From the NCBI GenBank assembly GCA_017458265.1, contig JAFTFV010000030.1, positions 1 to 52,632 on the forward strand: a DNA stretch of 52,632 nt, written 5' to 3'. Below the pieces are notes generated by a model. The model did not search any database, had not been told where the DNA came from, and worked only from the letters and a program-made list of their open reading frames with translations. Positions 5,632 to 37,929 of the stretch are shown here, in pieces (position 1 is the stretch's first letter; each line of letters starts with the position of its first letter). The position numbers and the translations under genes were made by a program. The stretch is from Bacteroidales bacterium. Lineage in GTDB: Bacteria; Bacteroidota; Bacteroidia; Bacteroidales; UBA932.

Positions 5632-5757
5632 TTGATACATTCAAACTAACACTTTCTGCCCTGGAACGCCATTTTTGGTGGTTTGACACGCTTTAAACAA
5701 CGCCAAACCACCGTTTTCGGCCTCTGACGCGCTGAAACGGTGGTCTGAATGTATCAA
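5632..5757 (+). repeat. Family-1 REPIN-like palindromic repeat, copy A
   Basis: 126 bp bounded by a perfect 11-bp inverted end, TTGATACATTC and GAATGTATCAA. Inside are two hairpin units with the words CCACC and GGTGG, separated by a CTTTAAACAACG spacer. The left hairpin has lost its left CCACC arm (CTAACAC instead); the right one is intact. Copies B, C and D share the architecture, and two short remnants exist. It lies downstream of the 5852 lipoprotein and upstream of the GH18 gene. Confidence 0.85.
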
Positions 5758-5767
5758 GTGTGCGCTG

Positions 5768-6995: not shown

Positions 6996-7000
6996 ACTTG

Positions 7001-7008: not shown

Positions 7009-7038
7009 CAAAAAAGGCGGAATAATCTGCAAATCGGA

Positions 7039-8323: not shown

Positions 8324-8339
8324 GTCAACTCATTTGCTG

Positions 8340-8391
8340 CAAAGGTAATTATAAATCGGCAAAATCAAAATACTTTTGCCGATTTATAATT
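8340..8391 (-). promoter_or_regulatory. Promoter overlapping an 18-bp perfect inverted repeat
   Basis: AATTATAAATCGGCAAAA (8347-8364) and its exact reverse complement (8374-8391) flank a 9-nt spacer. On the minus strand a -33-like TTTTG (8370-8366) lies in the spacer and the -7 box TACCTTTG (8347-8340) touches the proximal arm, 18 nt apart. Protein bound to the repeat would block polymerase. Its position before an HTH-containing antitoxin suggests autoregulation. Confidence 0.75.
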
Positions 8392-8516
8392 TGTAACACT
8401 CAAACCACCATCTTGGCCCCTGGAACGCCGTTTTTGGTGGTTTGACACACTTTAAACAACGCCAGACCACCGTTTCAGCGCGTCAGAGGCCGAAAACGGT
8501 GGTCTGAATGTATCAA
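8391..8516 (+). repeat. Family-1 REPIN-like palindromic repeat, copy B
   Basis: Same orientation and architecture as copy A: left hairpin with CAAACCACC and GGTGGTTTG, spacer CTTTAAACAACG, right hairpin, end GAATGTATCAA. The left end reads TTTGTAACACTC instead of TTGATACATTC. The loop of the right hairpin is the exact reverse complement of that in copy A. It stands downstream of prmA, 6 bp or less from the operator of the toxin-antitoxin unit. Confidence 0.85.
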
Positions 8517-8574
8517 AGTTTATGACTATGACGTCCTAAACAGGTTTATAGAGGACGGCCCCTATCTTATATAG
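8515..8574 (+). pseudogene. Possible C-terminal coding remnant
   Basis: Beside copy B the plus strand reads KVYDYDVLNRFIEDGPYLI then TAG. The text looks protein-like and has no start. It may be the tail of a gene cut by the repeat or island. Nineteen codons are too few to be sure. Confidence 0.2.
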
Positions 8575-8605
8575 GTTCCTGAGTGATAACATTACGCTTC
8601 AAAAC

Positions 8606-9448: not shown

Positions 9449-12400
9449 TTTTTCTTCTTTTTCTTAGATTTCTCGACTACGCCTTCGGCTTCGCTCGAAA
9501 TGACAGGGGAGGCTTCGCTCGAAATGACAGGGGAGACTTCGCTCGAAATGACAGAGGAGGAGCCGGAGGCCTTGCGCTCGAGCTCGATGACTTCTGCCTT
9601 GATGGTTTCAAGGCGGGCGGCAACGCGGTCGGTGACGTTCCCGGTTGTGGATTCCATCTGCTCCAGGGAGGCCATGATAATGTCGTCCATGGCGGTGGTG
9701 TCGGCATAGTCCGTGTATCCCACCTGGCTGATGCGGTCCTCAAGGAAGGTCTGGGAGGTGTTTTCTGCCATGGCGCCGTCTACGCCAAGTTCAAACACAT
9801 TGTGGATTGCGGCCACAAGGTTGTACTGGACGGTGTCCAGCTGCTTGGTGAAGACAGGTACGTTTGGAGATGTGTAGCGCGCCTTCCCCAGGCCGTACTT
9901 GATGTGGTCGAAGTCCTCTCCCCATGCGTTGAGGCCGAATTTCAGGACCAGCGGGGAGCGTATCACGGAGATATGGTAGTTGAAGCTCTCGTCCAGGTTC
10001 TGGATGCCGCTTGCCGCCATCATGTAGCGGTCTACGTCCAGAACGAAGGGGAACACTTCCAGTTTGTTGCTCCTCACCATTCCGGTCACCGACATGTTGT
10101 CTATGACCACCTTGCTCCTGTCCTTGAACAGGAGGAGGGTGGCAATCTTAGTGAATTCCTTGCTGTCCTTGAGCGCCAGCTGACGCCCGGTGAAGCGCAT
10201 GATGCCGTCAAGCGAAGGCAGCACCACGTTCATGGTGGTGTCGATTTCAGTGGTTGCCGCAATCTCCATGTCCAGGTCTCCGGAGAAGGAGTTCATGATG
10301 GGCATCTCCTTCTTTACGTCCGGGAACATGGTGAGGACCTTCTCTGCCGATATGTCCACGATATTGAGGTCGAATCCGGCCTTGATGTCGTCCTTTGCGC
10401 GGGTGGCGTAGAAGCCTTCCACGTACAGGTCTCCCATGTTTGAGGCGGCAAGGCCGTTGGTGATCTGGAGGGTGCGCTCCTTCATCACGATATCGGCGGC
10501 GAGCCAGTTCACCAGGAGGCTGTCATACTTGATTCCGGTGTTTTCCAGCATCACGTTCACGTCCAGGTTTGAAGGAAGCACCAGAAGGGCCGATGAAGCC
10601 GTGTCCGCAGGAGCCTTTTCCTCCACCTCGGACGTGTCCTTTGCCGGCATCATCCCCCGCAGGGCCGCCATGAGCTCGTTTGCGTCGATGTAATTGCTTG
10701 TCGCCGTGGCGTTTGCGTAGATGTGTGGCTTGCCGCGCCCGGTGAGGAGTCTCCTGATACCGGTGATCGTGGCGTTTGCCGATATGTCCGACTGCCCTGC
10801 CGTAATGGTGATGTTGTCAAGGGCGACCTTGTCGTTGTTGAAGTTGCCGGCGACGTCCGTGATCTCCGGCGTGAGCGACAGTCCGTCCACGTTCAGGCGG
10901 GCCAGTTCAAGGCCGATGGAACCGTCGAAATCCCACTTGCGGGCCATTTCCTGTGAGGATTTGGAGAGGGATAGCATGACATCGGCACCGGCGAATTCAT
11001 CCTTGAGCTGGGAGGCCATCCTTTCCATGCGGGCCTTGCGGAAGAGGGAATCGCGCGGGGTGCCGGGGTATACCCTCTGGAGGGAATCCAGGATGCGGTT
11101 CCGCCTTTCCCTGTTGGTGGTCCTGGCGTGTTCCCTTGCCGATACGCTTGCCGTAAGGTTCCTCGCTGCCACGTTGTTGCCCTCCATCACTGCGGCGATG
11201 GCGTCGTTCTCCGTGGTTATCTTCATGAGGGGCTTGCCGCCTTTTTCTTCGGCAGGGATGATGCGGAAGCGGTCTACGTTGCCCCTCAGAGCCACGTCTA
11301 TGCCGTCATAGTCCCGCAGGCTCAGGCGGTCTACCTTGAGAAGGCCCATGAGGGGGGTGAGCTGCTTGCCGCCCTTGAGGATGTCGGCAGAGTTCTGGGC
11401 AAGGAGCTTTATGCCGCTGCCGCGGGCATATACGTTTTTGCCGTATGTGGCGTTGAGGGTGTCGATGTCGGCCTTGAGGGAAAGGACGCGGGCGCCCTTG
11501 GGGAGGTTGGAGTCTATCCTGTTGCCGGCCGTGGCGGCATTGAGCGCTATGTTGCGGATGAAGGCGTGGACGGAGTCCTTGGGCATGTCGACGGTGAGGT
11601 CGGTGCCGCTCATGTCGGCCCGGATGTTGGCCTTGGCGATGCGGGACATGTCCGTGAGCTGGGACAGTTTTGCCTTTCCGTGGACCTCGCCTTTCAGGAT
11701 GCCGCGGCCGTCGATACCGTCCAGGAAGGCCCTGGTGAGGGAGTCGAGGCGGGCACGGAAGGTGCCGTCAAGGGTGAAGTCGGGGTCGTCGCCGGTGACG
11801 TCGCTGCCGCTGGCAGAGATGTCAAGCTTGGCGCCGGCAATGTCGGCATAGAGCTTGTGGACGGTGGCGTCGATGACGTCGAAGTTGTCTGTAACGACGT
11901 CTGCGTCAAGGGAAAGGCGGCCCTTTCGGCCAACGCCCTGGATATCCACGGTGGAAAGCGGGACCAGCAGTTTCGCGTTCACGGCGGGCATCTTTCCTTC
12001 GGCAATGGTGCCCTCTGCGTGGGCGTCAAGGGAGAGGCGGGCGTCGGTGTCTATCTTCTTGAAGAATTCTATGTTGTCCCGGAATTCCTTCATGAGGTCT
12101 CCGATGGGGCAGTCTTCGATGGCGGCGTCGATGTCAAGGTCAAGGCCGCCGGGATGGTTCAGGATGTCGCCCTTCGCCTTGAGTTCCAGGGAGGAAACAC
12201 GGGCGGTGAGGGAGTGGATGTTCACGCCCAGTTCGGCGTCTTTGTGCCTGGGAACCGTTGCATCGGCATCCAGGTGGATGGGTAGGCGCAGGCGGCCCAG
12301 GGAACGGGTCATGAGGAGGGCGCGGGCATCGGCATCAAGGATTACGTTGCGTCTTTTTACGCTGGCAAAGAGGTGCTCGAGGCCAAGGGCGAGGGTGTCG

Positions 12401-13122
12401 GCAGGAAGGCGGCCGGAGACGAAGAGGCTGTCTCCTTCGAGGGTGGAATTCGCGTCCTCGTAGTCCTGCAGGCGCAGTTTTCCGTCAAGGGCAAGGCGTT
12501 TTCCCCTTATTGCAAGGAAGGTGGTGTCCTTGGGAGAGGTGTACACCACGAAAGGCTTCTGATCCAGCGAAATCTTGTGGAGGATTATGTTCGCCATCCC
12601 GGAAGAGGTGGTATCCTTTTCCTTGTCTCCTGAAGCGAAGATGTCAAGGTTGGAGGCGGTGGAGTCGAAGACATGCATGAAGAAGCGGGGTTTCTCCAGT
12701 TCCACCTTGTGCACGTCTATGGCGCCGCCGGCAAGTGAAATGTAGTTAAGGCTGGCGTAGAGCCTTCTTGCAGAGAGGAGGGTGTCGATTCCGGAGCCGT
12801 CGCGGGCGTTTCCGGCCTTCATGAGGTTGAACCTGCGCTGAGTGTCTCCGGCAAGGGAGTCAAAGCGGGCGTATCTTTCGTGGGGGTAGGTGAGGGCGAC
12901 GCCTTCCGCCTCAAGGCTCACGAAGGGGAAACTCTTGATTACGTGCGCACTGATGCGGGAGAACTCGAGGTTCCCGCCTTCGATGAACTGGGGAGCATAC
13001 TTGTTCACCAGTCCCGTGAGGACAGAAGGCCTCAGGGCTATCTGAAGGCCGATGAGAACAATTGCCAGGAGGACAACTATGCCGATGAGTATGCCCCTTG
13101 CTACCTTCCAGAGCTTTTTCAT
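9445..13122 (-). CDS. Large AsmA-like inner-membrane-anchored protein
   Basis: 1225 residues. One N-terminal membrane segment (about 9-31) is followed by a very long periplasmic region with the AsmA pattern (SRISAHVIKSFPFVSLEAEG near the N-terminus and a conserved C-terminal domain ending in VPVFTKQLDTVQYNLVAA). AsmA/TamB relatives are thought to bridge the envelope and move lipids or assist outer-membrane assembly. The extreme C-terminus is odd: three in-frame 24-bp tandem repeats encode VISSEVSP, VISSEASP and VISSEAEG, followed by VVEKS and a run of six Lys. Both ends overlap their neighbours as ATGA (regulator upstream, prmA downstream), indicating coupled translation. Confidence 0.8.
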   Translation of the reverse strand: MKKLWKVARGILIGIVVLLAIVLIGLQIALRPSVLTGLVNKYAPQFIEGGNLEFSRISAHVIKSFPFVSLEAEGVALTYPHERYARFDSLAGDTQRRFNLMKAGNARDGSGIDTLLSARRLYASLNYISLAGGAIDVHKVELEKPRFFMHVFDSTASNLDIFASGDKEKDTTSSGMANIILHKISLDQKPFVVYTSPKDTTFLAIRGKRLALDGKLRLQDYEDANSTLEGDSLFVSGRLPADTLALGLEHLFASVKRRNVILDADARALLMTRSLGRLRLPIHLDADATVPRHKDAELGVNIHSLTARVSSLELKAKGDILNHPGGLDLDIDAAIEDCPIGDLMKEFRDNIEFFKKIDTDARLSLDAHAEGTIAEGKMPAVNAKLLVPLSTVDIQGVGRKGRLSLDADVVTDNFDVIDATVHKLYADIAGAKLDISASGSDVTGDDPDFTLDGTFRARLDSLTRAFLDGIDGRGILKGEVHGKAKLSQLTDMSRIAKANIRADMSGTDLTVDMPKDSVHAFIRNIALNAATAGNRIDSNLPKGARVLSLKADIDTLNATYGKNVYARGSGIKLLAQNSADILKGGKQLTPLMGLLKVDRLSLRDYDGIDVALRGNVDRFRIIPAEEKGGKPLMKITTENDAIAAVMEGNNVAARNLTASVSAREHARTTNRERRNRILDSLQRVYPGTPRDSLFRKARMERMASQLKDEFAGADVMLSLSKSSQEMARKWDFDGSIGLELARLNVDGLSLTPEITDVAGNFNNDKVALDNITITAGQSDISANATITGIRRLLTGRGKPHIYANATATSNYIDANELMAALRGMMPAKDTSEVEEKAPADTASSALLVLPSNLDVNVMLENTGIKYDSLLVNWLAADIVMKERTLQITNGLAASNMGDLYVEGFYATRAKDDIKAGFDLNIVDISAEKVLTMFPDVKKEMPIMNSFSGDLDMEIAATTEIDTTMNVVLPSLDGIMRFTGRQLALKDSKEFTKIATLLLFKDRSKVVIDNMSVTGMVRSNKLEVFPFVLDVDRYMMAASGIQNLDESFNYHISVIRSPLVLKFGLNAWGEDFDHIKYGLGKARYTSPNVPVFTKQLDTVQYNLVAAIHNVFELGVDGAMAENTSQTFLEDRISQVGYTDYADTTAMDDIIMASLEQMESTTGNVTDRVAARLETIKAEVIELERKASGSSSVISSEVSPVISSEASPVISSEAEGVVEKSKKKKKK
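9467..9560 (-). repeat. VISS repeat: three tandem 24-bp units within a CDS
   Basis: CTTCGCTCGAAATGACAG occurs at 9489-9506, 9513-9530 and 9537-9554, a strict 24-bp period. The flank GATTTCTCGACTACG at 9467 completes one full palindromic element. The same element occurs in the GH3 gene (36445) and in the second MFS gene (42469). All copies keep the frame. Confidence 0.85.
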
Positions 13123-14267
13123 ATTACGTAATCTTTGACGTCCTGTGCGCTGACGGGGTTGCCTCCAAGGATGAGGAGGCGTTCAACCACGTTCCTGAGT
13201 TCGCGGATGTTTCCGGGCCAGGACCTTTGCCTGAGAAGTTCGATGGCTTCGTCGGAGAAGGGGCGCACGGGCTTTCCGCTTTCGGAGGAAATCATGGCCG
13301 AGAAGTGATTGATCAGGAGGGGAATGTCGTCCTTCCTGTCGTCCAGGGCGGGCACCCTGAGGACGATGACGCTGAGCCTGTGGTAGAGGTCTTCGCGGAA
13401 GTTGCCCTTGACGATCTCTTCCTGCAGGTTCTTGTTGGTTGCTGCGATAACCCTCACGTCCACGGTGATCTCCTTGTCTCCGCCTACGGGGGTAAGTTTC
13501 CTCTCCTGGAGGACGCGGAGCACCTTTGCCTGTGCTGCAAGGGACATGTCTCCGATTTCATCCAGGAAGATGGTGCCGCCGTCGGCCTGTTCGAACTTTC
13601 CCTTGTGGTCCTTTATTGCCGATGTGAACGAGCCCTTCTTGTGGCCGAAGAGTTCGCTGTCGATGAGCTCGGAGGGGATGGCGGCGCAGTTCACTTCCAC
13701 GAACGGCATCATGGAGCGCTGGGACATCTGGTAGATGCCCTGGGCGACGAGTTCCTTGCCGGAGCCGTTGGGCCCTGTGATGAGGACGCTTGCCTGGGTG
13801 GGGGCGACCTTCTCCATCATCTCCCTCAGGTGGCCTACAGTGGATGATTCACCTATCATTTCCCGGCCGTAGATCTTCTTTTTCAGGATCTTTGTTTCCT
13901 TGACAAGGGTGGCCTTGTCGGTGGCGTTCTTGAGGGTGATCAGGATGCGGTTCAGGTCCAGGGGCTTCTCGATGAAGTCGAAGGCGCCGCGCTTGATGCA
14001 GTCTACGGCGGTCTGGATGTCGGCATGGCCGGAAATCATGACGACGGGGCTCTCGATGCCCTCTTCGATGAGCTTGGAGAGCACTTCGTTGCCGTCCATC
14101 ACGGGCATCTTGATGTCGCAGAAGATGGCGTCGAATTTGTCCTTGCGGGCCTTTTCAAGGCCTTCTTCGCCATTTTCGGCGGTTTCAACCTCATAGCTTT
14201 CCATCTCCAGAATTTCCTTCAGGGAATAACGGATAGCCCTTTCGTCGTCGATTACCAGAACTTTCAT
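13119..14267 (-). CDS. NtrC-family sigma-54 response regulator lacking a Fis domain
   Basis: 382 residues. Receiver domain 1-120 with phosphoacceptor D51 (FCDIKMP) and FIEKPLD. AAA+ domain about 140-365 with Walker A ITGPNGSGKEL, a GSFTSA sequence where the sigma-54-contacting GAFTGA loop is expected, Walker B GGTIFLDEIGD, and WPGNIRELRNVVERL. It stops at SAQDVKDYVI with no room for the usual C-terminal Fis helix-turn-helix, so DNA binding must be absent, indirect or by partner. The nearest sensor is the NtrY-like kinase at 19320. First gene of the operon with the AsmA-like gene and prmA; its stop and the next ATG overlap. Confidence 0.85.
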   Translation of the reverse strand: MKVLVIDDERAIRYSLKEILEMESYEVETAENGEEGLEKARKDKFDAIFCDIKMPVMDGNEVLSKLIEEGIESPVVMISGHADIQTAVDCIKRGAFDFIEKPLDLNRILITLKNATDKATLVKETKILKKKIYGREMIGESSTVGHLREMMEKVAPTQASVLITGPNGSGKELVAQGIYQMSQRSMMPFVEVNCAAIPSELIDSELFGHKKGSFTSAIKDHKGKFEQADGGTIFLDEIGDMSLAAQAKVLRVLQERKLTPVGGDKEITVDVRVIAATNKNLQEEIVKGNFREDLYHRLSVIVLRVPALDDRKDDIPLLINHFSAMISSESGKPVRPFSDEAIELLRQRSWPGNIRELRNVVERLLILGGNPVSAQDVKDYVI

Positions 14268-14308
14268 GAGTTGTTACCTTTAATTATGCAAATATCGTAA
14301 AAAATCTT

Positions 14309-14316
14309 TACTTTTG
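14309..14316 (+). promoter_or_regulatory. -7 box (TACTTTTG) of cmk
   Basis: TACTTTTG ends 7 nt before the cmk ATG at 14324. It lies in the 56-bp divergent gap with the NtrC-like gene. Confidence 0.55.
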
Positions 14317-14323
14317 TGTCATT

Positions 14324-15010
14324 ATGAAAATTCCTGACATCATTATAGCCGTGGATGGATGCTCGTCCACCGGAAAGAGTACTTTCGCAAAGATGGTCGC
14401 GGGGGCCTTCGGCTTCCTGTATCTTGACAGCGGTGCAATGTACCGCGGAGTGACGCTGTATGCCATGGAGAGTGGCATCATCGGCCCGGACGGGAAGATT
14501 GACGAGGCTTCCCTGAAGGCGGTGATTGACGGGCTGGACCTTTACTTCGCAGCAGACGGGCTGCATCTCGGAGAGAGGTGCATCGAGAAGGAAATCCGCA
14601 CCCTGGAGGTGTCCTCGCACGTTTCGCCGGTGAGCGCCATCGGCTTTGTGAGGGAGTTCGTGGACTCAAAGCTGCACGCCTTTTCAGAGGGCGGCAGGGT
14701 TATCATGGACGGCCGTGACATCGGCACAACCGTGTTCCCCAACGCAGAACTCAAGATATTCATGACGGCATCGGACAACGTGCGCGCACAGAGGCGCTAT
14801 GACGAGATGATCGCAAAGGGCGAAACTCCCACCTTCGAGGAGGTCCTTGCAAATCTCCGCGAGAGGGATTACATCGACTCCCACAGGGAGGTCTCCCCGC
14901 TCACGCAGGCTCCGGATGCCTTTGTACTTGACAATACTGAGATGACCCTCCATGAGGAGCTGGTATGGATCCAGGGGCTCATCCAGGGGCGTTTCGGAAT
15001 CCTATGCTAA
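14324..15010 (+). CDS. cmk: Cytidylate kinase
   Basis: A 228-residue CMP/dCMP kinase, cytoplasmic, using ATP to make CDP and dCDP. P-loop GCSSTGKST at about residues 12-20, then YLDSGAMYRG, the CMP-binding MDGRDIGT, FMTASDNVRAQRR with the Arg-rich lid, and LRERDYIDSHREVSPL, all typical for Cmk. The ispH gene starts 7 bp before its stop, so the two form an operon. The promoter lies 7 nt before the ATG. Confidence 0.93.
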   Translation: MKIPDIIIAVDGCSSTGKSTFAKMVAGAFGFLYLDSGAMYRGVTLYAMESGIIGPDGKIDEASLKAVIDGLDLYFAADGLHLGERCIEKEIRTLEVSSHVSPVSAIGFVREFVDSKLHAFSEGGRVIMDGRDIGTTVFPNAELKIFMTASDNVRAQRRYDEMIAKGETPTFEEVLANLRERDYIDSHREVSPLTQAPDAFVLDNTEMTLHEELVWIQGLIQGRFGILC

Positions 15011-15876
15011 CGGTAGAGACAGACCCGGGCTCCGGCTTCTGCGGAGGGGTTATCCGGGCAATTTCCAGGGCTGAGCAGTACCTGTCTTCCGGTGAAACTT
15101 TGTATTCGCTGGGCGCTATCGTGCACAACGAGGCTGAGCTTGCCCGGCTTGGAGACAGGGGACTGGTCACGGTCTCTTCGCCTTCTGACGTGCCCGTGGG
15201 CGCTTCAATGCTGATACGCGCCCATGGGGAGCCGCCTTCCACGTATGTCGCAGCAATGGAGAGGTCGCTGACGGTCATCGACTGCACGTGCCCTGTGGTG
15301 CTGCGGCTGCAGGGACGTATCCGCGAGGCTTATTCGCGCCTGCATTCTTCGGGGGCTCACGGAACCGTAGTGATTTTCGGACGTGTGGGCCATGCAGAGG
15401 TTCTCGGCCTTCTGGGCCAGGTGGGCGGTGACGCCGTGGTGGTGGAGAATGCCGCCATGCTCTCAGAGGCGCTGTCTTCCGGCCTCATAGACGTCTCCCA
15501 GCCTGCCGAAATCTTCTCCCAGACCACCAAGAGCCCTTCCGAGTATGTGCAGATATGTTCTCAGCTGCGCGCCGTGGTGCCGTCACTGGTGGTTCACGAC
15601 ACCATCTGCGCCCAGGTGGCGTCCAGGCACACTTCCCTGGCCTCTTTCGCCCGTGCACATGACGTTGTCATCTTCGTTTCCGGCAAGTCTTCTTCCAACG
15701 GCAAGGTCCTCAGCGACCTTTGCCGCCACGAGAATCCCCGTACCTATATCGTTGGCGGTCCTGCAGAGATTGATTCATCCTGGTTCGCCGGCGCTTCCAC
15801 CGTGGGCGTCTGCGGCGCCACCTCAACCCCGCAGTGGCTCCTGGAGCAAGTCGCGAATGCCGTACGCGAGCTGTAG
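15004..15876 (+). CDS. ispH: 4-hydroxy-3-methylbut-2-enyl diphosphate reductase
   Basis: The last step of the MEP isoprenoid pathway (HMBPP to IPP and DMAPP), an iron-sulfur enzyme. The start is taken at the ATG at 15004, where MLTVETDPGSGFCGGV begins; an upstream in-frame ATG at 14965 lies inside cmk. Cluster and active-site landmarks: Cys13 in GFCGGV, IVHNEAEL, RAHGEPPS, DCTCPVV, FSQTTKSPSEY, HDTICAQVASR, SGKSSSNGKV and CGATSTPQWL. 290 residues, usual length. The first MEP step, dxs, is at 50530. Family-1 repeat copy C starts 19 bp after its stop. Confidence 0.93.
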   Translation: MLTVETDPGSGFCGGVIRAISRAEQYLSSGETLYSLGAIVHNEAELARLGDRGLVTVSSPSDVPVGASMLIRAHGEPPSTYVAAMERSLTVIDCTCPVVLRLQGRIREAYSRLHSSGAHGTVVIFGRVGHAEVLGLLGQVGGDAVVVENAAMLSEALSSGLIDVSQPAEIFSQTTKSPSEYVQICSQLRAVVPSLVVHDTICAQVASRHTSLASFARAHDVVIFVSGKSSSNGKVLSDLCRHENPRTYIVGGPAEIDSSWFAGASTVGVCGATSTPQWLLEQVANAVREL

Positions 15877-15894
15877 CGCCCGTTGCTTCGTCTT

Positions 15895-16018
15895 TTGATA
15901 CACTCAAACCACCGTTTTCGGCCCTGTAGCGGCGTTTTTGGTGGTTTGCCCATGTTTAAAAGACGTCAAACCACCGTTTTCGGCCCCTGGTGAGCCAAAA
16001 CGGTGGTTTGAATGTATC
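15895..16018 (+). repeat. Family-1 REPIN-like palindromic repeat, copy C
   Basis: Begins TTGATACACTC and ends GAATGTATC. The two hairpins each carry CAAACCACC and GGTGGTTTG and are separated by CCCATGTTTAAAAGACG. It fills the gap between the convergent ispH and efp genes, where it could also act as a terminator for both. It is an almost perfect inverted copy of copy D. Confidence 0.9.
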
Positions 16019-16052
16019 TAGGCAATGATGCCAGGGCGGCAATCGGCCTGTA

Positions 16053-16622
16053 TTACTTCACCCTCTGTCCGTAGGAACGGTCGGTGGTGTTGACGGTGAT
16101 GATTTCACCGGTCTCGATGAAGAGGGGAACCATGATCTTGGCGCCGGTCTCCAGGGTGACTTCCTTAAGTGCGGAAGTGGATGCGGTGTTACCTTTGACT
16201 GCGGGCTCTGAGTAGGTGACCTCGAGGGTTACATAGGTAGGGAGTTCGCAGGTGAGGCAGCGCTCTTCGGGTTCGGTGAGGAACATCATTTCCACATGCT
16301 GGCCTTCTTTCATGAGGTCTGCATTTTCGACTACATCATGAGGAAGGGTGATCTGTTCGTAGGTTTCCTCGTGCATGAAGTTGAATGCTTCGCCATCGTC
16401 ATAGAGGAACTGGTAGGGGCGGCGCTCTACGGTGATAGTGTCAATCTTTGCACCGGCGGTGAAGGTGTTCTCCAGGATGCGGCCGTTCTCCAGGTTGCGG
16501 AGCTTGGTCTTTACGAAAGCGGGGCCCTTGCCGGGCTTTACGTGCTGGAAGTAAACTACAACGCAGGGCTTGCCATTGAAGTCAATGTAGAGTCCGTTCT
16601 TGAAATCAGCAGTTGTTGCCAT
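16053..16622 (-). CDS. efp: Elongation factor P
   Basis: A 189-residue EF-P, which enters the ribosomal E site and relieves stalling at polyproline. KOW-like N-terminal domain with the loop HVKPGKGPAFVKTK (K32 at the modified tip position), middle OB domain (RRPYQFLYDDGEAFNFM), C-terminal OB domain (TLETGAKIMVPLFIETGE and NTTDRSYGQRVK). Single gene. The promoter lies at 16664-16695 on the minus strand, with a leader of about 35 nt. The gene lies inside the segment bracketed by repeat copies C and D but is a core gene, so those copies probably landed on either side of it. Confidence 0.95.
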   Translation of the reverse strand: MATTADFKNGLYIDFNGKPCVVVYFQHVKPGKGPAFVKTKLRNLENGRILENTFTAGAKIDTITVERRPYQFLYDDGEAFNFMHEETYEQITLPHDVVENADLMKEGQHVEMMFLTEPEERCLTCELPTYVTLEVTYSEPAVKGNTASTSALKEVTLETGAKIMVPLFIETGEIITVNTTDRSYGQRVK

Positions 16623-16663
16623 AAATTATTTGATATTTGGTGTTAGTCGTGCTTTACAGACTG

Positions 16664-16695
16664 CAAAAATAACGAATTGCTGTTTTTTATGCAAA
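16664..16695 (-). promoter_or_regulatory. efp promoter
   Basis: On the minus strand TTTG (16695-16692), 20 nt spacer, TATTTTTG (16671-16664), a good match to the Bacteroidota consensus. Confidence 0.6.
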
Positions 16696-16744
16696 TTTTT
16701 GATTGTCTGCAGGGTCGCGGCAGGAATCCCGAGTGCAAAAAGTG

Positions 16745-16906
16745 AAACGGATAATCGGCCATGCAAACCGATGAGAGGACGTTTTTGGCGGCTTTGTCAA
16801 GGTTTTTACTGCAAATAAACGTTTGTGAAACGTTTCATATCGGCCCTGGAGCGCTATGGGATGGCTTTTATCCGTTTTATCCGTTTACCATTTTTTTAAA
16901 CGGATA
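16745..16906. promoter_or_regulatory. Four TATCCGTTT boxes before the HTH-RAYT operon
   Basis: AAACGGATA at 16745-16753, two abutting direct copies of TATCCGTTT at 16869-16877 and 16878-16886, and an inverted copy at 16898-16906, which makes a palindrome with the second copy over an 11-nt spacer. A 9-mer is expected less than once in a window of this size. The same box occurs upstream of the second RAYT (37921-37929). Candidate operator for the HTH protein or RAYT binding site. A TACCTTGC near 16915 is a weak -7 candidate. Confidence 0.65.
16776..16860 (+). repeat. Strongly diverged family-1-like sequence
   Basis: GACGTTTTTGGCGGCTTTG resembles the GCCGTTTTTGGTGGTTTG arm, and CGGCCCTGGAGCGC resembles the loop CGGCCCCTGGAACGC of copy B. 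Between them an AAACGTTTGTGAAACGTTT palindrome replaces the usual centre. Perhaps an old copy in the promoter region of the cassette. Confidence 0.35.
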
Positions 16907-16931
16907 GGCTCTGTTACCTTGCGGGCGGAAT

Positions 16932-16950
16932 CCCTTGCACGGGGCAAGGG
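16932..16950 (+). promoter_or_regulatory. Leader hairpin before the HTH gene
   Basis: CCCTTGC and GCAAGGG form a 7-bp stem with a 5-nt loop, 27 nt before the ATG at 16978. If transcribed it would lie in the leader and could affect ribosome access. Confidence 0.4.
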
Positions 16951-16977
16951 AAGTAACACTTAAACCATTTTATTTAT

Positions 16978-17358
16978 ATGCCAAACAGAAGTACAGCTTT
17001 CCTTCCGCAGGAAAAATTCGATCAGATCAGGGCTGCTTATGCCCGTTTCAACGAGCCTTGGCTGCCAAGCGAAGTGGAGGAATTGAAGGCTATGGCCGAA
17101 GAGAAAGTCACGGAAGAAGACATGGCGGCCCAGTTGCAGCGCACGCCGTCTTCCATACGGCTGAAACTGAAGTCGTTGGGACTGTATGTCGCAAAACCGG
17201 CACCGGCACGCTGGAGTGAAGAGGATGATGAAATGCTTGTTGAACTGTTCAAAAACGGATCCTCGCCAGAGTATCTTGCAGAAAGGTTCGGCCGCTCCCT
17301 TCGCGCCGTCATCTACCGCCTAGTCCAACACCGCATGAACGTCTTCGACCATGTTTGA
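16978..17358 (+). CDS. Tandem helix-turn-helix (Myb/SANT-like) DNA-binding protein
   Basis: A 126-residue protein with two similar three-helix DNA-binding modules: about 27-70 (W, three acidic residues, EEDMAAQLQRTPSSIRLKLKSLGL) and about 79-119 (RWSEEDDEMLVELFKNG, then EYLAERFGRSLRAVIYRLVQ). Both end in the R-S/T-x-x-x-[IV]-x-x-[RK]-L recognition helix typical of Myb/SANT and GcrA-like proteins. It overlaps the RAYT start by 8 bp, so both are made together. Four TATCCGTTT boxes lie upstream. Inference: an accessory or regulatory protein of the RAYT, perhaps binding those boxes or the repeat. I know of no standard RAYT system with such a partner. Confidence 0.75.
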   Translation: MPNRSTAFLPQEKFDQIRAAYARFNEPWLPSEVEELKAMAEEKVTEEDMAAQLQRTPSSIRLKLKSLGLYVAKPAPARWSEEDDEMLVELFKNGSSPEYLAERFGRSLRAVIYRLVQHRMNVFDHV

Positions 17359-18211
17359 CGAACCCGTCAGCGACTATTGGCACGTCTATTCCGACGGCAA
17401 ACGTGCAGACATTCCTTTCGCGACCGACAAGGATAAGGTTTTTGCGATGAACGCAATCGCAATATGCGCATTTCAGAGCGATATGGAGGTGATATGCCAG
17501 GAGGTGAATGACACCCATCTTCACAGCATCCTGAGGGGGCGATTCCCCGAAAAATTCCGCGCAGGAATGAAAAAGAGGATCAGTACGTGGCTGAACAGGA
17601 AAGGAACGGACCGGTCTGGTGAATTTTACCTGTCCTTCAACGAGATAACAAGCAGAAGGGAACTGCTTACAAAAATAATGTACACATACAGGAACAGCCT
17701 GGATTGTTATTGTGGAGCGCCATGGAATTACCGATGGGGTGTCGGGAATCTCTATTTTGCCCCAAGGATTTCTTTGGGTACGCCGCTGCGAGATCTCACC
17801 GCCAGACAGCAGCGGGAACTCCTGTCTTGCTGGCAGGAACTGCCGCAGGACTGGAGAATAGACGGTAGCGGCATGCTTCTTCCTTCCAGCTACATCAATG
17901 CCGACCTTGTTGAATCACTATTCGGTTCGGTGAGAGTGTTCCTCGCATTCTTGTACGTAAAAAGGGATGATGAACTGCAGATGAAACAGGCATTAAGCCA
18001 GTACTATATGAATCAGCGCAGCATGGAGGACTTGAGGCAGCATGCAAACAGGCTTGCTCACAATAAGTACAACAAGTCGCTAAGAAGCATCGATTTTGAA
18101 TCCAGGCTTGAAATTGCCGCGAGCATGCTCCGTGGCGGGTCCGGCAGCCGTACTGAAAACTTCGCCAAAGCCCTCTATCTCAAAAAAGCGGATATCGACC
18201 GACTGTTGTAG
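17351..18211 (+). CDS. REP-associated tyrosine transposase (RAYT), divergent
   Basis: A 286-residue Y1/HUH single-strand DNA transposase relative. The N-terminal core matches RAYTs: HVYSDGKRADIPF, the metal-binding H-x-H (H56, H58 in NDTHLHSILRG, where most have PNHxH) and the helix MYTYRNS with the probable catalytic Tyr111, followed by YRWGVGNLYF. The C-terminal 150 residues include PSSYINADLVESLFGSV and a final helix pair (TENFAKALYLKKADIDRLL) likely to recognise the repeat. The second RAYT (36952) has the same architecture. Its TAG stop uses the first base of repeat copy D. Known RAYTs cut and join REP hairpins as single strands. Motifs are intact, so it may be active. Confidence 0.8.
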   Translation: MFDEPVSDYWHVYSDGKRADIPFATDKDKVFAMNAIAICAFQSDMEVICQEVNDTHLHSILRGRFPEKFRAGMKKRISTWLNRKGTDRSGEFYLSFNEITSRRELLTKIMYTYRNSLDCYCGAPWNYRWGVGNLYFAPRISLGTPLRDLTARQQRELLSCWQELPQDWRIDGSGMLLPSSYINADLVESLFGSVRVFLAFLYVKRDDELQMKQALSQYYMNQRSMEDLRQHANRLAHNKYNKSLRSIDFESRLEIAASMLRGGSGSRTENFAKALYLKKADIDRLL

Positions 18212-18331
18212 ATACATTCAAACCACCGTTTTGGCTCACCAGGGGCCGAAAACGGTGGTTTGACGTCTTTTAAACATGGGCAAACCACCAAAAACGCCGC
18301 TGCAGGGCCGAAAACGGTGGTTTGAGTGTAT
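18211..18331 (-). repeat. Family-1 REPIN-like palindromic repeat, copy D
   Basis: Reverse complement of copy C with very few differences in about 120 bp (for example TGCAGCGG against TGTAGCGG). It begins GATACATTC at the last base of the RAYT stop and ends GAGTGTATT, 2 bp before the stop of the convergent DUF4783 gene. Confidence 0.9.
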
Positions 18332-18333
18332 TA

Positions 18334-18789
18334 TTAATACGCTCCGGCTTGGCGGGTGATGGAGAGCTGCTGGATCTTGTAGGTGTCGCCGGCAGAGGCG
18401 GTGGCGTAGATGGTGACTTCGAAGAGTTCGCCGCCGGCATTGAGAAGGCCTATCATGTATTTCTTGTTGGATTCGGAAGCCTTGTGGGTAACCTCGAAAG
18501 AACGCGGGGTATAGGTTCCGAAGAAGGTTCTGAGTATCTGCCGGGCCTGGTTGCGCGAGCAGTTGCGGGTGGATGAGATTACAGTGACGTCCAGATTGTC
18601 TGCGAACCAGCTGGAAAGGGAGGCGGCGTCTCCTGCAATCAGGTATTTGGTAATTGAATTGAATACGGCGAAGTCTCCGTCAGGGGACTGTGTATATGTG
18701 CGGGCAACCGGTGTTGCATGCACCTGGGCAAAGCCTGGGATGGCAGCCGCCATCGCCAAAAGGCATAGTATCTGTTTCATTTTTTTCAT
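18334..18789 (-). CDS. DUF4783-like exported protein
   Basis: 151 residues with a signal peptide (MKKMKQILCLLAMAAAIPGFAQ, likely cut after the Ala before Gln). The mature part has the DUF4783 pattern: ITKYLIAGDAASLSSWFADN, then SRNQARQILRTFF and a C-terminal pair of strands ending QQLSITRQ, a small cystatin/NTF2-like fold. Function unknown. An alternative start at the Met at 18780 changes little. It converges on the RAYT with repeat copy D between, and is divergent from rlmH. Confidence 0.75.
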   Translation of the reverse strand: MKKMKQILCLLAMAAAIPGFAQVHATPVARTYTQSPDGDFAVFNSITKYLIAGDAASLSSWFADNLDVTVISSTRNCSRNQARQILRTFFGTYTPRSFEVTHKASESNKKYMIGLLNAGGELFEVTIYATASAGDTYKIQQLSITRQAGAY

Positions 18790-18840
18790 CCGGTCGGTTA
18801 TTTATGCAAATTTCGAGCCGTGATTGAGAAAAGATTTTTG

Positions 18841-18848
18841 TACATTTG
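18841..18848 (+). promoter_or_regulatory. -7 box (TACATTTG) of rlmH
   Basis: TACATTTG ends 5 nt before the rlmH ATG at 18854, so the message is almost leaderless. This also argues against the in-frame ATG at 18824, which lies upstream of the promoter. Confidence 0.6.
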
Positions 18849-18853
18849 CAAAG

Positions 18854-19327
18854 ATGAACGTAAAACTGCTCACTGTTGGGGAAACCGTGATTCCCTGGGT
18901 AAAGGAAGGTCTGGAACTGTACTGTTCCAGGCTTAAGCATTATGTGCCTTTCTCCGTGACGGAGATTCCGGAGCTCAAGAAGGTGTCGGCACTGAGTGAA
19001 GAGCAGATAAAGGAGAAGGAAGGAGCGCTGATACTGAAGAATATCGGCCCGCAGGATACCCTGATACTGCTGGACGAAAAGGGGAAGGAGTTCCGCTCGG
19101 TTGAGTTTGCCGCCTGGCTGGAAAAGCAGATGGCCGGCGGGGCGAAAAACCTGGTTTTCGTCATCGGCGGGGCGTACGGATTCTCCAAGGAAGTGTACGG
19201 GAGGGCCGGAGGAAAGATATCCCTATCAAAAATGACCTTCTCCCATCAAATGGTTAGAACGATTTTTGCAGAGCAGCTCTACCGCGCCTGCACCATACTC
19301 AAAGGCGAGCCTTATCACCATGAATAG
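18854..19327 (+). CDS. rlmH: 23S rRNA pseudouridine1915 N3-methyltransferase
   Basis: A 157-residue SPOUT (knotted) methyltransferase that methylates pseudouridine 1915 of 23S rRNA on the assembled ribosome, using S-adenosylmethionine. It starts at MNVKLLTVGE. Knot and SAM-binding landmarks: LILLDEKGKEFRS, FVIGGAYGFSKEVYGRA, and the C-terminal ISLSKMTFSHQMVRTIFAEQ followed by LYRACTILKGEPYHH. Full length. The histidine kinase gene starts inside its last codons (8-bp overlap), which links the two in one operon. Confidence 0.93.
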   Translation: MNVKLLTVGETVIPWVKEGLELYCSRLKHYVPFSVTEIPELKKVSALSEEQIKEKEGALILKNIGPQDTLILLDEKGKEFRSVEFAAWLEKQMAGGAKNLVFVIGGAYGFSKEVYGRAGGKISLSKMTFSHQMVRTIFAEQLYRACTILKGEPYHHE

Positions 19328-22300
19328 GAAGAGGAACATCTGGCTTGTGACCGCCGCACTGCTTCTTGCCGGAGCCGTGGCGTTCACCGTGGCCTCGTTC
19401 CTTTCAGACGGTTCGTCAAATACTGAATCGGCTGCTAAGGCGCTCGGGAAAAGGGTAGAGTACCGCCTTGCCCTTCTGGAAAGCAGCATGGAAAAGGCCC
19501 TTTCCAGCAACGAAGCCACCTGGACAGAGCTGGAAAACCTCCCTGCCGACATGGTCGTTTACCGCTATGTCGAAGATACCCTGCAAAGCTGGGCGAACCG
19601 CTTTCCCATCCGCAGTGACGATATCCGCACCAGCACCATCGTGCGCCGCCTGGGAGAATCCCGGAGCGATGCGGTGTCGCCCCTGAAGGACGTCGGCCCC
19701 GAATGGTCCTTCACCAACCTTGGCCCAAAGTGGTACCTTACCAAGGCCGCAACGGATGGTGAGACGGGAGTCATCGCCGGCCTGGAAATCGTAGACGAAC
19801 TGCGCGCCGGTTCCATGAACGGCAGCAACCGCAGGCTGAGGATTCCGGAAGTCTTTTCCGTGAAGCCGCTTTCCTCTAGTGTAGGCGCACCCGTGACGGT
19901 GAATGGGGAGCCGCTCTTCAAGCTTGCATCGGAAAAGATGGAAAGCAGTACCGGCGGGCATAACTTCGACCTGCAGCTCATCGCAATTGCACTGCTGATA
20001 CTTGCTTCGCTGGCATTTCTGGCGGCCGGGCCATCGGCAGGAAAACTTGTCCTGGTCGCGGTTCTGCAGACGGCACTGCTGGTCTGGACATACCTCCGCG
20101 GCAGGGGCGAGACCTCTGCTCTTTTCTCCCCGCTCCTCTATGCCGACGGCCCCATACTCTACTCCCTTGGCGCAGTAATCCTGCAGAGCCTCAACATAGT
20201 CCTTCTGGTAACGGACCTCTATATCGGCAGGAGGACACTGTTGAGGGAGGTGCGCAGAAAGGACAGCCGGGCGTTGGAGTGGACGCTTCTCGTTGCAGGC
20301 CTTGCGGCGGCTGTGCTCATCGGCACGTATTTCCATTTCGTTTTCAAGAGCATCATCGTCAACTCCGACATAAGCCTGGAACTGTATATAGTTGTAAGGC
20401 TGTCGGTCTACACGGGTATTGTCTATGCCGTTTTCATTGCCCTGGCGCTGTCCCTGGTGGTGCTGCTCCAGATGCTGTCGCCGCTGGCGCGTTCGCTCTT
20501 CGGCCTAAGGTATGACCTGTTCTCCGTGCCATCCAGGGCCGTTTTTTCCGCAATTCTGGGTCTGTACTTCGTGTCGATGACCGCGCCGCTTGGCTTCCAC
20601 AAGGAAGAGCGGCGGATTGACGTCTGGGCAAACCGCCTCGCAATGGACAGGGACGTAGCTCTCGAAATCCAGCTCAGAAGCGTCGAGGGCCAGATTGCCG
20701 ATGACCAGATGTTCGGAGCCCTTGCCTCCCTTTCCGGCGGGGCCGATGTTATCCGCGGCCGCCTGGTGAGCAACTACATGGCCCGTATCTCGCAGGACTA
20801 TGACATATCGGTTCTCGAGACCGGCGGCAACCTTGGGGCGAATCCGGTGTTCCAGGAAAGGGTGCGCAGCGGAGTGCGCCTTTCTGACAATTCCAACTTC
20901 TTCTACAGTCCCCTTGGCGCCGGCAGGGTGGCCTATACCGGCGTGTTTACATGGTACATATCCGGAGTGGGCTCCACCTCGATGCTCATTTCGGTAGAGT
21001 CCAAGCGGAACAGGGAAGACAGGGGCTACCTGCGCCTTCTTGGCGTGTCGGACCCCGGACGTGTAAGCCTGCCCTCTGTCTATTCATGGGCGAAATATGT
21101 AGACGGAAACATGGTGCAGTATACCGGCGCCTATGCATATCCTACCGTGCTTTCCGGCAAGTTCCTCCACGAGGGGCACATGAACCTCGAAGGCTGGTGC
21201 CACTTTGTGAGAAATGTCTCCGAAGGGGAAGTGATAGTGATTTCACGTGAGCGTACGGCCTTCCTTGACTATGGCGTAGCCGGGCTCATGCTGGCCATAC
21301 TCACGTTCTTCTTCCTAAGCGCCATGGCTGCCGGCAGGGGCCGCAGCTCCACCTCCCGCTACTATCAGAACAGGATAAGCCTTGTTCTGTACGTGTCTCT
21401 GTTCCTGACGCTTATCGCGATGGCCGGTTTCAGCGTATGGTTCGTGTACAAGAGAAACGCATCCGACATACAGAACGTCATGATTTCCCGCGTAAACACG
21501 CTCCAGGGCATGATGCAGGAACGCCTGCGCTCGCTTGACGGCATCCAGGGGAACGGCGTCCGCGCAGAGATGGAAAGCATCGGCAACAGCCTCCATACTG
21601 ACATTACGCTGTTCGACCCTTCCGGCCACATGGCATACAGCACCACGCCGGAAGTATATGACCGCATGATACTGAGCCATCGCATTGACGAAACTCCGTA
21701 CTACAATATAATGTACGCCCACAAGCGCTACTTCATCCAGAAGGAGAAGGTGGGACGCAGGAGTTTCTACGCCATGTATGCTCCCGTATTCAATTCCGGC
21801 GGGCAGATGATAGCCATCCTGGCCTCTCCCTTCACCAGCATGACAAGGAATTTCGAGGCCGAAGCCGTGAGCCACATCGCCACCGTCATCACCATATTCT
21901 TCCTGCTTCTGCTGCTGTCCCGCGTGGTTACTTTCGAGGTGGTGAGCCGCCTCTTCAGGCCCATCACGGAGCTCAGCCGCAAGATGAAAGTCACGGACGT
22001 AGACCATCTGGAAACGCTGTCCTACGACGGTGACGACGAGATTACACCGCTTGTGAACGCCTACAACCGCATGGTACTGGACCTTGGCGACTCCTCCCGC
22101 CGCCTTGCCCAGGCCGAAAGGGACAAGGCCTGGACAGACATGGCCCGCCGCGTCGCCCACGACCTCAAGAACCCCCTCACCCCCATCAAGCTGCAGATCC
22201 AGCTCCTCATGAGGATGAAGGCCTCCGGAAATCCTGCCTGGCAGGACAAACTCGAAGAAGTTGCCGGCACCGTCCTCTACCACGTAGACCTCCTTGCCGA

Positions 22301-22784: not shown

Positions 22785-22796
22785 CCGGCTTCTCCC

Positions 22797-22813
22797 GGTT
22801 TGAATGTATCAAA
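22797..22813 (+). repeat. Family-1 repeat remnant
   Basis: GGTTTGAATGTATCAAA matches the right end of copy C, in the 37-bp gap between two convergent stop codons. Only the end is left. Confidence 0.65.
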
Positions 22814-22821
22814 GTCCAGGG

Positions 22822-25035: not shown

Positions 25036-25124
25036 AAATTGCGATTAGTCGCCATAAAGTTAGCAATAAATACAAAAATGGTACAAAATTACTCTAAAAA
25101 GTATCATCTTTTGACACATTAATG

Positions 25125-25156
25125 TTTGCGCGCGCACATATAAATTCATAAATTTG
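25125..25156 (+). promoter_or_regulatory. Promoter of the mannan/glucan enzyme operon
   Basis: TTTG (25125-25128), 20-nt spacer, TAAATTTG (25149-25156), then about 27 nt to the ATG. The -33 element overlaps the palindrome TGCGCGCGCA (25127-25136), which might bind a regulator. Confidence 0.65.
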
Positions 25157-25183
25157 TAAACTAATAAAGTGTAACACAGCATA

Positions 25184-36862: not shown

Positions 36863-36954
36863 GCGGTAACGTTTTTGGCTATTATTGTTTCCCTGGAAGT
36901 CACCCATGACGTGGGTGGTAACACTTTTGGCCGTTTTTGTTCCCCTGGAGGTCA
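36863..36954 (-). repeat. Family-2 repeat: two direct 40-bp units at the RAYT2 3' end
   Basis: Unit 1 (36863-36902) and unit 2 (36915-36954) align over their full length, sharing GGTAAC, TTTTGG, TTGTT and CCCTGGA words. CACCCA-TGACG-TGGGTG (36901-36917) is a perfect palindrome joining them. The last three bases of unit 2 are the RAYT2 stop codon on the minus strand. Related units lie at 39230-39318 and 40339-40371. Confidence 0.8.
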
Positions 36955-37869
36955 GATGGTTAGGTGCCGGTAGTCCTTGGCGTTGATAACCTGCTTCACG
37001 ATGACTTCCTTGAGGAAGATTGATGTAGAAATCTGATAGGAGTTAAGCGTGTATGTCCTTGAAAGGATGACTGCAAGTTTGCATTTTTCATCCTGGCTTA
37101 ATGACTTGAGACTTCTTCCGCCGTAGTGCTTCTGAAGAACCTGTCCTACGATGTCATGTATTTCCAAAGAAGAGAACTCCACTGACTCGTCAAGTTCACG
37201 AGCGGTTTTGACATATGCCTCGTAGTCTTTTACGAGTGCACTTTCAAAGTCTTTGACACCATCAAAGAGTTTGTATACCATACCGGTGTCTACGAATGAA
37301 GATGGACTGAGTCCGAGGACCGGATGGAAAATCCATTCTGCCGGGACAGAATCCTTAGTCCCGGTTCTTCTCCTTATTTCCCTTTGTGACATTTCAGCCG
37401 CTTTCTCGCCGGTTATGAGCCGCGGCATATCTGAGTAATATAGCCATCCGGAACTCCACATGTAGCCGCCCGGTGTTGCAAAGTTTTTCTCGAAGCCATT
37501 CCTGAGGACATAGATTATTTCTTTTCTCATCTGTTCCTTGTCCTTTATTTCCACCAGTTTGAAACCATAATCCTCAAGTGGCGGAAAACCGTTTTTCACC
37601 AAATTGGCAGAAATCATCTTGCACATGTAGTCGAAGGACTTGAGTGCATTCGCCCCCGTCCCTTTCATAATAATGTGTATATGGTTTGGCATAAGGGAAA
37701 AGGCATAGATGGTTATGTCGAATTTGAGCACGATGAGGCCTAGCACAGTCATTCCATATGCATATTCAATGATGCTATTGAACAGCTTCCTGTCTTTCAG
37801 GCCATCTGTACACAGGTGGAAGTATCCAAGCGGCTTACCCTTTACCTTTTCTCTTTGTGTCCTTGTCAT
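36952..37869 (-). CDS. REP-associated tyrosine transposase (RAYT), second copy
   Basis: The start is taken at the ATG at 37869 (MTRTQREKVKGKPLGYFHLC); an upstream TTG frame exists but is less likely. 305 residues. Y1 transposase core with the full RAYT motif SLMPNHIHIIMKG (H63, H65) and IIYVLRNGFEKNF with catalytic Tyr120, then GGYMWSSGWLYY. The C-terminal extension (SPSSFVDTGMVYKLFDGV and a final helix pair) aligns with that of the RAYT at 17351, so both belong to one extended family. It sits between the GH3 terminator and the epimerase gene, splitting the glycan locus. Its stop lies in a family-2 repeat unit. No HTH partner is adjacent, but the same TATCCGTTT box lies upstream. Confidence 0.85.
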   Translation of the reverse strand: MTRTQREKVKGKPLGYFHLCTDGLKDRKLFNSIIEYAYGMTVLGLIVLKFDITIYAFSLMPNHIHIIMKGTGANALKSFDYMCKMISANLVKNGFPPLEDYGFKLVEIKDKEQMRKEIIYVLRNGFEKNFATPGGYMWSSGWLYYSDMPRLITGEKAAEMSQREIRRRTGTKDSVPAEWIFHPVLGLSPSSFVDTGMVYKLFDGVKDFESALVKDYEAYVKTARELDESVEFSSLEIHDIVGQVLQKHYGGRSLKSLSQDEKCKLAVILSRTYTLNSYQISTSIFLKEVIVKQVINAKDYRHLTI

Positions 37870-37900
37870 AACAATCCTTTTTTGCAAAGGACGCAAGAGT

Positions 37901-37929
37901 TATCCGTGTACGCAAAGGTGAAACGGATA
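37901..37929. promoter_or_regulatory. TATCCGTTT-type box pair upstream of RAYT2
   Basis: TATCCGT (37901-37907) and AAACGGATA (37921-37929) form an inverted pair 32-60 nt before the RAYT2 ATG. The 9-mer is identical to those before the HTH-RAYT operon. Confidence 0.55.

Follow-up and report, generated by a model that had tools for sequence, protein, structure and literature searches.

A divergent RAYT-like gene with a recurrent helix-turn-helix neighbour in a repeat-bracketed, rearranged block of Bacteroidales genomes

RAYT proteins are usually described as immobile, domesticated transposases that maintain families of repetitive extragenic palindromic (REP) sequences and REPINs. Orthologous RAYTs can have different REP classes (PMC3686654), and helix-turn-helix (HTH) domains form the C-terminal parts of the enzymes of subclass 2.1 (PMC6006769). 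We studied a RAYT-like gene on contig JAFTFV010000030.1 of a Bacteroidales bacterium (assembly GCA_017458265.1, a 2.13-Mb draft genome, hereafter G000). The window is this whole contig of 52,632 nucleotides (C57). Here the RAYT is accompanied by a candidate operator and by a separate, regulator-like gene that recurs next to RAYTs. The block that holds them between repeats, core gene included, changed place between sister species while similar segments inverted. A separate HTH partner gene of RAYTs was not found in the literature searched, outside which most subscription papers lay. The locus thus raises the questions of what controls RAYTs and whether RAYTs or their repeats rearrange chromosomes. 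On balance we favour the view that the locus is REPtron-like and belongs to a divergent Y1/RAYT group of gut and rumen Bacteroidales. In this view, the RAYT would maintain the elements, the HTH protein would act as a regulator and the bracketed segment could invert or relocate.

The block consists of efp, the HTH gene and the RAYT-like gene, enclosed by two arms of 123 nt each that are 99% complementary and 2188 nt apart (Table 1). A sequence-only reading of the window had proposed a divergent Y1 transposase overlapping a double Myb/SANT-like protein gene by 8 bp, with palindromes of about 120 bp in opposite orientation at both ends. The 8-nt overlap of the two open reading frames (ORFs) was confirmed, the small protein was found to carry a tandem Myb/GcrA-like HTH, and the right arm does begin at the RAYT stop codon. 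The opposite palindromes also stood, but they lie at the ends of efp-HTH-RAYT, downstream of efp and of the RAYT, and not at the ends of the HTH-RAYT pair alone. A bracket arising by chance was rejected, given 99% agreement over 123 nt. The enclosed efp is a core gene, matched in 59 of 61 genus genomes and by a single match in 57 of those 59. Both the HTH gene and the RAYT gene are under purifying selection between G000 and its sister species UBA4360 (G057), with dN/dS of 0.09 and 0.12, respectively.

Table 1. Positions in the window of the block and of related features.
Feature	Position	Strand	Basis or remark
Left arm, a family-1 palindromic element with two hairpins, located downstream of efp	15898..16020	+	Repeat search, alignment, fold
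efp (elongation factor P), a core gene enclosed by the arms	16053..16622	-	Pfam EFP domains
Four ACGGATA sites, candidate operator	16745..16906		AAACGGATAA at 16745, 16868 and 16877; AAACGGATA at 16898
Dyad TATCCGT-N15-ACGGATA within the candidate operator	16878..16906		
Tandem Myb/GcrA-like HTH protein, 126 aa	16978..17358	+	ORF and profile matches
Divergent RAYT-like Y1 protein, 286 aa; H56, H58, Y111	17351..18211	+	ORF and profile
Right element copy, inverted, starting at the RAYT stop codon	18209..18331	-	
GGTTTGAATGTATCAA in the gap that holds the block in sister species UBA4360 (G057)	22797..22812	+	First 14 nt are the element's end
Additional element copy	5635..5762	+	
Additional element copy, second hairpin flipped relative to the 5635 copy	8396..8514	+	98% inverted, 66% direct
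Second RAYT-like gene	36952..37896	-	PF01797 at about the cut-off; bracketing repeats not found
Dyad TATCCGT-N15-ACGGATA immediately upstream of the second RAYT-like gene	37901..37929	-	

The larger ORF carries an HxH motif and one predicted catalytic tyrosine in the order of Y1 enzymes, and from its sequence we accept it as a divergent Y1/RAYT-like protein. In line with the residues named in the sequence-only reading, H58 and Y111 are invariant and H56 is kept in at least 90% of a 17-sequence profile whose other members are 15-91% identical to the window protein. The tyrosine lies in a YxxRN motif in 13 of the 17 sequences; the window protein reads YTYRNS there and THLH at the HxH region. Aligned with E. 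coli RayT, the profile places H59, H61 and Y115 on H56, H58 and Y111 (E 0.0036, score 26.0), whilst nine decoys scored lower, at 9.9-19.6. Only three matches were found in PDB up to E 1, all chains named transposase (2xm3, 2xo6 and 2xma, E 0.085-0.089), which we take to be ISDra2 TnpA, and PHROGs gave a single RAYT match (E 0.038). One paralogue from the same genome reached 23.9 bits in a DNA-level search against the Y1_Tnp cut-off of 23, and 22.8 as a protein.

Profile searches located 10 RAYT-like places in G000, nine of them besides this locus, and 7, 13 and 4 in three relatives. Near-identical copies of the RAYT gene were not found in G000, where paralogues are at most 33% identical to it. 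Six of the eight other RAYTs tested in G000 have their own framing repeats, in inverted or direct orientation; no framing repeats were found for the remaining two, on C39 and at window position 36952. At two further HTH loci (L113 and L115) the RAYT gene is likewise flanked by inverted palindromic repeats.

Each family-1 element, of which 15 copies were aligned, comprises two hairpins. As single-stranded DNA the complete element is predicted to form a single long hairpin, with GATACA/TGTATC closing it. The predicted single-stranded DNA hairpin of the element (129 nt folded) has a free energy of -32.7 kcal/mol, compared with a mean of -14.5 for shuffled sequences (z -6.2; none of 200 shuffles as good). 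The ends of one copy pair over the full element, as in REPINs, where two REPs form one long hairpin. The GT[AG]G foot of REPtron hairpins is absent from the left end of all 15 full copies, which have GATACA (13), AATACA (1) or GTAACA (1) there, although GTAG is present at the outer end of the right arm, overlapping the RAYT stop, and at the block copies of UBA4360. Within the window, the second hairpin of one additional copy (8463-8506) is flipped relative to that of the other (5704-5747), being 98% identical when inverted and 66% when direct, while the left part is direct. The hairpins themselves may invert.

The presence of the element follows that of the enzyme. About 20 copies occur in G000 (19 sites in one search, 15 of them at least 119 nt), and the element was found in only 4 of 101 genus genomes, with many copies in G000 and G057 and one site each in G054 and G051; copy numbers from this genus search are lower bounds, as only 8 of 12-44 first-pass candidates were scored in the four genomes with matches. 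Three of the four carriers (G000, G057 and G054) have both this RAYT and the HTH gene. G051 keeps the HTH gene together with one partial repeat and a RAYT remnant bearing a large internal deletion. The proposal that the RAYT has cognate palindromic repeats was upheld. This distribution is consistent with the published finding that REP abundance depends on the cognate RAYT (PMC3686654). Part of the co-distribution reflects shared descent, because the four carriers are also the nearest relatives found. The G054 block is framed by a different inverted repeat, in agreement with the differing REP classes described for orthologous RAYTs (PMC3686654), and we rejected the idea that this repeat forms a dispersed family, as only two copies, both at the block, were present in the G054 DNA searched. 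From the catalytic residues and the co-distribution, the RAYT very probably acts on its cognate two-hairpin elements in single-stranded form, nicking and joining them, which would keep a small family of copies alive.

We then examined the HTH protein, whose best PHROG is phrog_323, a D5-like regulator (E 8e-18). Among 101 genus genomes, 14 contain strong homologues (E<=5.2e-28) and seven others give weaker matches, whilst only 2 of 393 genomes sampled from the order, the own genome included, contain a match at E<=1e-12. A scan of genome contigs for the HTH gene, reaching close relatives, gave 36 loci; two weak matches (L147 and L148) were dropped and 34 kept. In 17 of these 34 loci a RAYT starts on the same strand at most 364 bp downstream of the HTH gene, counting one remnant (L114) and one split gene (L120). 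Two of the remaining loci have a RAYT 1.2-1.7 kb downstream, two have one upstream, and in 13 none was found in the DNA examined. A downstream RAYT on the same strand is therefore present in 19 loci and an upstream one in only 2. By contrast, 1 of 478 control genes had a RAYT within 600 bp in the same position, and these controls came from G000 alone, from stretches partly selected around RAYTs. The HTH gene thus precedes RAYTs far more often than expected by chance.

The linkage recurs across the RAYT phylogeny. HTH-linked RAYTs fall in four well-supported clades (that of the window, the L129-L142 group, the group of L116, L117, L119, L135 and L141, and L125), and two of the four also contain unlinked RAYTs from G000. 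The tree holds 46 profile-found rows without L120, and only drawn clades were used, as change counts ignore unlabelled rows; since it mixes HTH-selected with RAYT-selected rows, the separate clades are informative and the share of HTH-linked rows is meaningless.

Linkage of this kind might indicate that the HTH protein and the RAYT form a dedicated two-component machine acting jointly on the repeats. The 8-nt overlap and a spacing of only a few nucleotides in L113, L115, L135 and L141 would fit such a machine, as would the linkage itself and a correlation between HTH and RAYT identities over 19 pairs, computed without L120 (Mantel r 0.75, none of 5000 permutations as high). The correlation disappears, however, among the 123 divergent comparisons (r -0.08), in which HTH identity is 38-66% where median RAYT identity is 19%. 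On the HTH tree, RAYT presence changes at least six times, with 11 changes on the best tree, and it shows no clustering, since 219 of 500 shuffles gave as low a count. Of the related RAYTs, 19 of 22 from a wider group (E<=1e-30) have no HTH gene within roughly 1.5 kb on either side, and four of six HTH-less RAYTs tested are still bracketed by repeats. The expectation that RAYTs of this group would mostly carry the HTH gene therefore failed, with only 3 of 22 doing so.

In L114 the HTH gene persists after deletion of the RAYT. L137 and L138 are 93-96% identical and share their HTH gene, but the 1.27-kb unit of RAYT and palindromes that follows it in L137 is cleanly missing from L138, where the HTH gene stands without a RAYT; L142 and L144 show the same kind of difference at 81-84% identity. 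In L132 and L134 the HTH block is 92.5% identical, the RAYT region behind it cannot be aligned as DNA and one flank aligns in reverse; these features hint that RAYT exchange and inversion also took place in a second clade. Because RAYT presence behind the HTH gene varies and 19 of 22 related RAYTs lack it, the pairing is recurrent but not obligate. The HTH protein as an obligate RAYT partner was rejected on the same RAYTs and on the 13 of 34 HTH genes without a RAYT in the DNA examined, and we regard a joint two-component machine as quite unlikely. Of the earlier suggestion of a dedicated partner or regulator, the link to RAYTs is real whilst the dedicated partnership was not supported. The protein is most likely an autoregulated regulator rather than an obligate nuclease subunit.

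In one lineage a conserved ORF of 116 aa directly follows the HTH gene, in L119, L122 and L123 (L065 is the same locus as L119), and the gene beyond that ORF in L119 and L122 is presumably serpin-like.

The candidate target of such a regulator is the motif ACGGATA. It occurs within 350 bp upstream of 29 of 35 HTH genes, compared to 288 of 6282 random windows of the same loci. When counted by gene, it precedes 20 of 26 HTH genes, 7 of 42 RAYTs and 64 of 1033 others. Exact AAACGGATAA sites number six in 349 kb of G000 DNA, chosen as stretches around repeats and RAYTs, and all six lie upstream of the HTH gene (three) or of the RAYTs at window position 36952, on C50 and on C20; a further 258 kb of unselected G000 DNA contained none. 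In this G000 DNA the dyad TATCCGT-N15-ACGGATA is found three times, before the HTH gene, the second RAYT of the window and the C20 RAYT. Judged from these promoters, the HTH protein likely controls its own gene through the candidate ACGGATA sites, which it would read singly or as the dyad. It may also read ACGGATA in the promoters of some other RAYT genes, and control of these is possible.

Alternatively, the HTH protein could be a bystander, with a third regulator binding ACGGATA and controlling HTH and RAYT genes that merely share insertion-tolerant loci. ACGGATA precedes 6 of 16 RAYTs in genomes without the HTH gene, so another protein may bind the motif, and in G057 a similar four-site promoter stands before an unrelated lipoprotein-like gene (L255:2530-2700; C2, about 84.5 kb). 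We therefore rejected the motif as proof that the HTH protein controls RAYTs. A mere sharing of loci is nevertheless hard to reconcile with linkage in 17 of 34 loci against 1 in 478 controls, with the bias towards downstream RAYTs on the same strand, or with a motif far commoner at HTH promoters than at RAYTs. We consider the bystander explanation unlikely, and autoregulation by the HTH protein remains the preferred reading.

Next, gene order around the block was compared between species. Between ispH and an alpha-galactosidase-like gene lie block B (repeat-efp-HTH-RAYT-repeat) and block D (DUF4783-rlmH-kinase); the efp, ispH, DUF4783, kinase and alpha-galactosidase families were assigned by Pfam, whilst rlmH, and cmk and ntrC below, are presumed identities from reading the translations. 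The order is B D in G000, D B in G057, inverted B then inverted D in G054, and inverted D then inverted B in G051, where B has no repeats and a RAYT remnant. The orientation of B relative to D is constant in all four species. Across the stretch 8606 to 26443, only B changed sides between G000 and G057, whose proteins there are 89-99% identical. A solo hairpin of the element family remains in the G057 ispH-DUF4783 gap, and the G000 kinase-galactosidase gap holds an exact 14-nt element end. These orders suggest that the bracketed block moved as a unit between sister species. The earlier argument that the presence of efp inside the bracket makes a simple composite transposon improbable needs revision, as efp changed place along with the rest of the block.

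Between G000 and G057, inversion is also seen in three further segments with bracketing repeats. The segment C4:16855-19237 (L040:16855-19241) is filled by a non-RAYT gene, which we take to be beta-glucosidase-like, between two near-identical inverted element copies; in G051 its flanks meet within 26 bp and the segment is absent. The C46 segment (8499-12872 aligned) has no RAYT match at E<=1e-6, and its second repeat is visible only in G057, because the contig of G000 ends there. The C61 segment (C61:19046-23495) is a REPtron with two further genes, whose arms are 96% identical when inverted in G000 and more alike in direct orientation in G057. Collinear sites were found at C50 (right side), C14, C2:101249 and C1:34094, the element pair on C29 encloses one whole G057 contig, and for the remaining element sites no match was found in the G057 DNA examined.

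Near-identical inverted repeats can mislead assembly, and several G057 contigs do end at family-1 repeats, one 3.4-kb contig consisting entirely of the DNA between two copies. A typical read pair spans more than an element, however, and the assemblies often break at repeats instead of joining across them. The block move would further require different unique flanks on both sides and distinct remnants at the alternative sites. We thus hold it very improbable that the inversions and the block move are assembly artefacts.

Recombination between near-identical inverted elements explains the inversions, and three such inversions also give the block move. The near-identical end copies of the block would let the enclosed segment invert or relocate in this way, with or without the RAYT. 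The competing explanation is that the RAYT transposes the whole bracketed unit through a single-stranded intermediate in the manner of IS200/IS605, with efp as a passenger. Transposition would account for the block move in one step and for the constant orientation of B and D. It also fits the clean switch of B to the other side of D in the sister pair, boundaries that lie at repeats, element remnants at both alternative sites, and the clean presence or absence of RAYT and palindromes at L137/L138 and L142/L144. Parsimony by hand over the four species required about 3 events if transposition is allowed and about 6 if all changes are inversions, which is a count and not a test. On the other side, three inversions among three palindromic repeats produce the same outcome, and the three other inverted segments are explicable by recombination, with no RAYT in the C4 segment and no RAYT match in C46. 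In addition, efp changes neighbours in RAYT-free contexts, and the available parts of PMC6006769 and PMC8266576 give no indication that REPtrons or tnpAREP are mobile. Given the genus-wide changes of efp neighbours and the inversions seen, RAYT-driven transposition was rejected as a firm claim. We rate transposition as rather unlikely, and recombination between the elements, with or without the RAYT, is the more probable driver.

Several observations weigh against the overall reading of a REPtron-like locus with a regulatory HTH protein and a rearranging bracket. The alignment with E. coli RayT reaches a probability of only 9% and relies on one template sequence, and the window RAYT has no Pfam or NCBIfam match even at E 10. 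Enrichment of ACGGATA at RAYTs is weak (Fisher p 0.017 compared to other genes, with rows that are not independent), and in genomes with the HTH gene only 5 of 32 RAYTs carry it, a smaller share than the 6 of 16 in HTH-less genomes. Across the genus, the neighbours of efp are ispH-cmk, rlmH-kinase or ntrC, in an order that varies even where HTH-RAYT is absent (30 loci shown), so the move of the block may be ordinary genome shuffling. The compared genomes are all draft assemblies, and the named ones are mostly metagenome-assembled genomes.

A bolder extension would make the RAYT-repeat systems of this genus genome-shuffling units. An HTH switch would control RAYTs through the ACGGATA dyad, and the RAYT, acting at paired inverted hairpins, would move or flip blocks with core genes, here efp, so that domesticated Y1 enzymes would drive local changes in gene order. 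We doubt that this stronger version is correct.

Other features of the window were also recorded. The two additional element copies, in direct orientation, enclose (5635-8514) two genes and a likely toxin-antitoxin pair, made up of genes for a HepT-like ribonuclease (7051-7392) and for an AbiEi/nucleotidyltransferase fusion (7382-8323); the corresponding place in G057 contains no DNA that matches the enclosed stretch. A 31-nt repeat (97%) at 36440-36470 and 42464-42494 lies inside two coding regions and adds a VISSEVEKS-like peptide, and such peptides are also present in other translated genes. Rfam at gathering scores found only a tRNA in the window, and PADLOC gave no match for the RAYT or the HTH protein.

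Set against described systems, the locus shares features with several. IS200/IS605 elements likewise have HUH enzymes with a single tyrosine and hairpin ends. They differ from this locus, where near-identical gene copies are absent from the genome and the protein has 286 aa compared to 140-143 aa in the matched PDB transposase chains. The HTH protein resembles the phrog_323 D5-like phage regulators and GcrA/Myb HTH proteins in its tandem HTH, but it has 126 aa, is chromosomal and RAYT-linked, and is nearly restricted to one genus. TIRtrons/TIRYTs (PMC3733652) also have a Y1 gene between long terminal inverted repeats (TIRs), some of which form repeat families, and 20 of 26 examples belong to the subclass (2.1 in PMC6006769) whose enzymes carry an HTH domain. 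Their HTH is a C-terminal enzyme domain and most of their TIRs share GGGG[AT][CG]A[CG], whereas at the locus studied here a separate gene encodes the HTH and the elements form hairpins. Subclass 2.6 of TnpA-Y1 (PMC6006769) is also found in Bacteroidetes and has atypical secondary structures that flank the gene, with copies elsewhere, but its signatures are NH[LIV]H and YIH[QN]NP in place of the THLH and YTYRNS seen here.

The closest likeness is to REPtrons (PMC6006769, PMC8266576 and PMC3686654), which share an HUH-Tyr enzyme and a distinct gene for each repeat family. In both, inverted copies flank the gene, further palindromic copies are dispersed, the abundance of the repeats is linked to the cognate RAYT, and orthologous RAYTs differ in repeat class. 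Both inverted palindromic flanking repeats and a dispersed cognate family are present at the locus studied here. Most of its copies lack the GT[AG]G foot, and its tyrosine lies in YxxRN rather than the published YxxNP-type signature (PMC6006769); because of these two differences we file it as REPtron-like and not as a canonical REPtron. It is further set apart by a separate upstream HTH gene and by a bracketed unit that differs in place and orientation between species.

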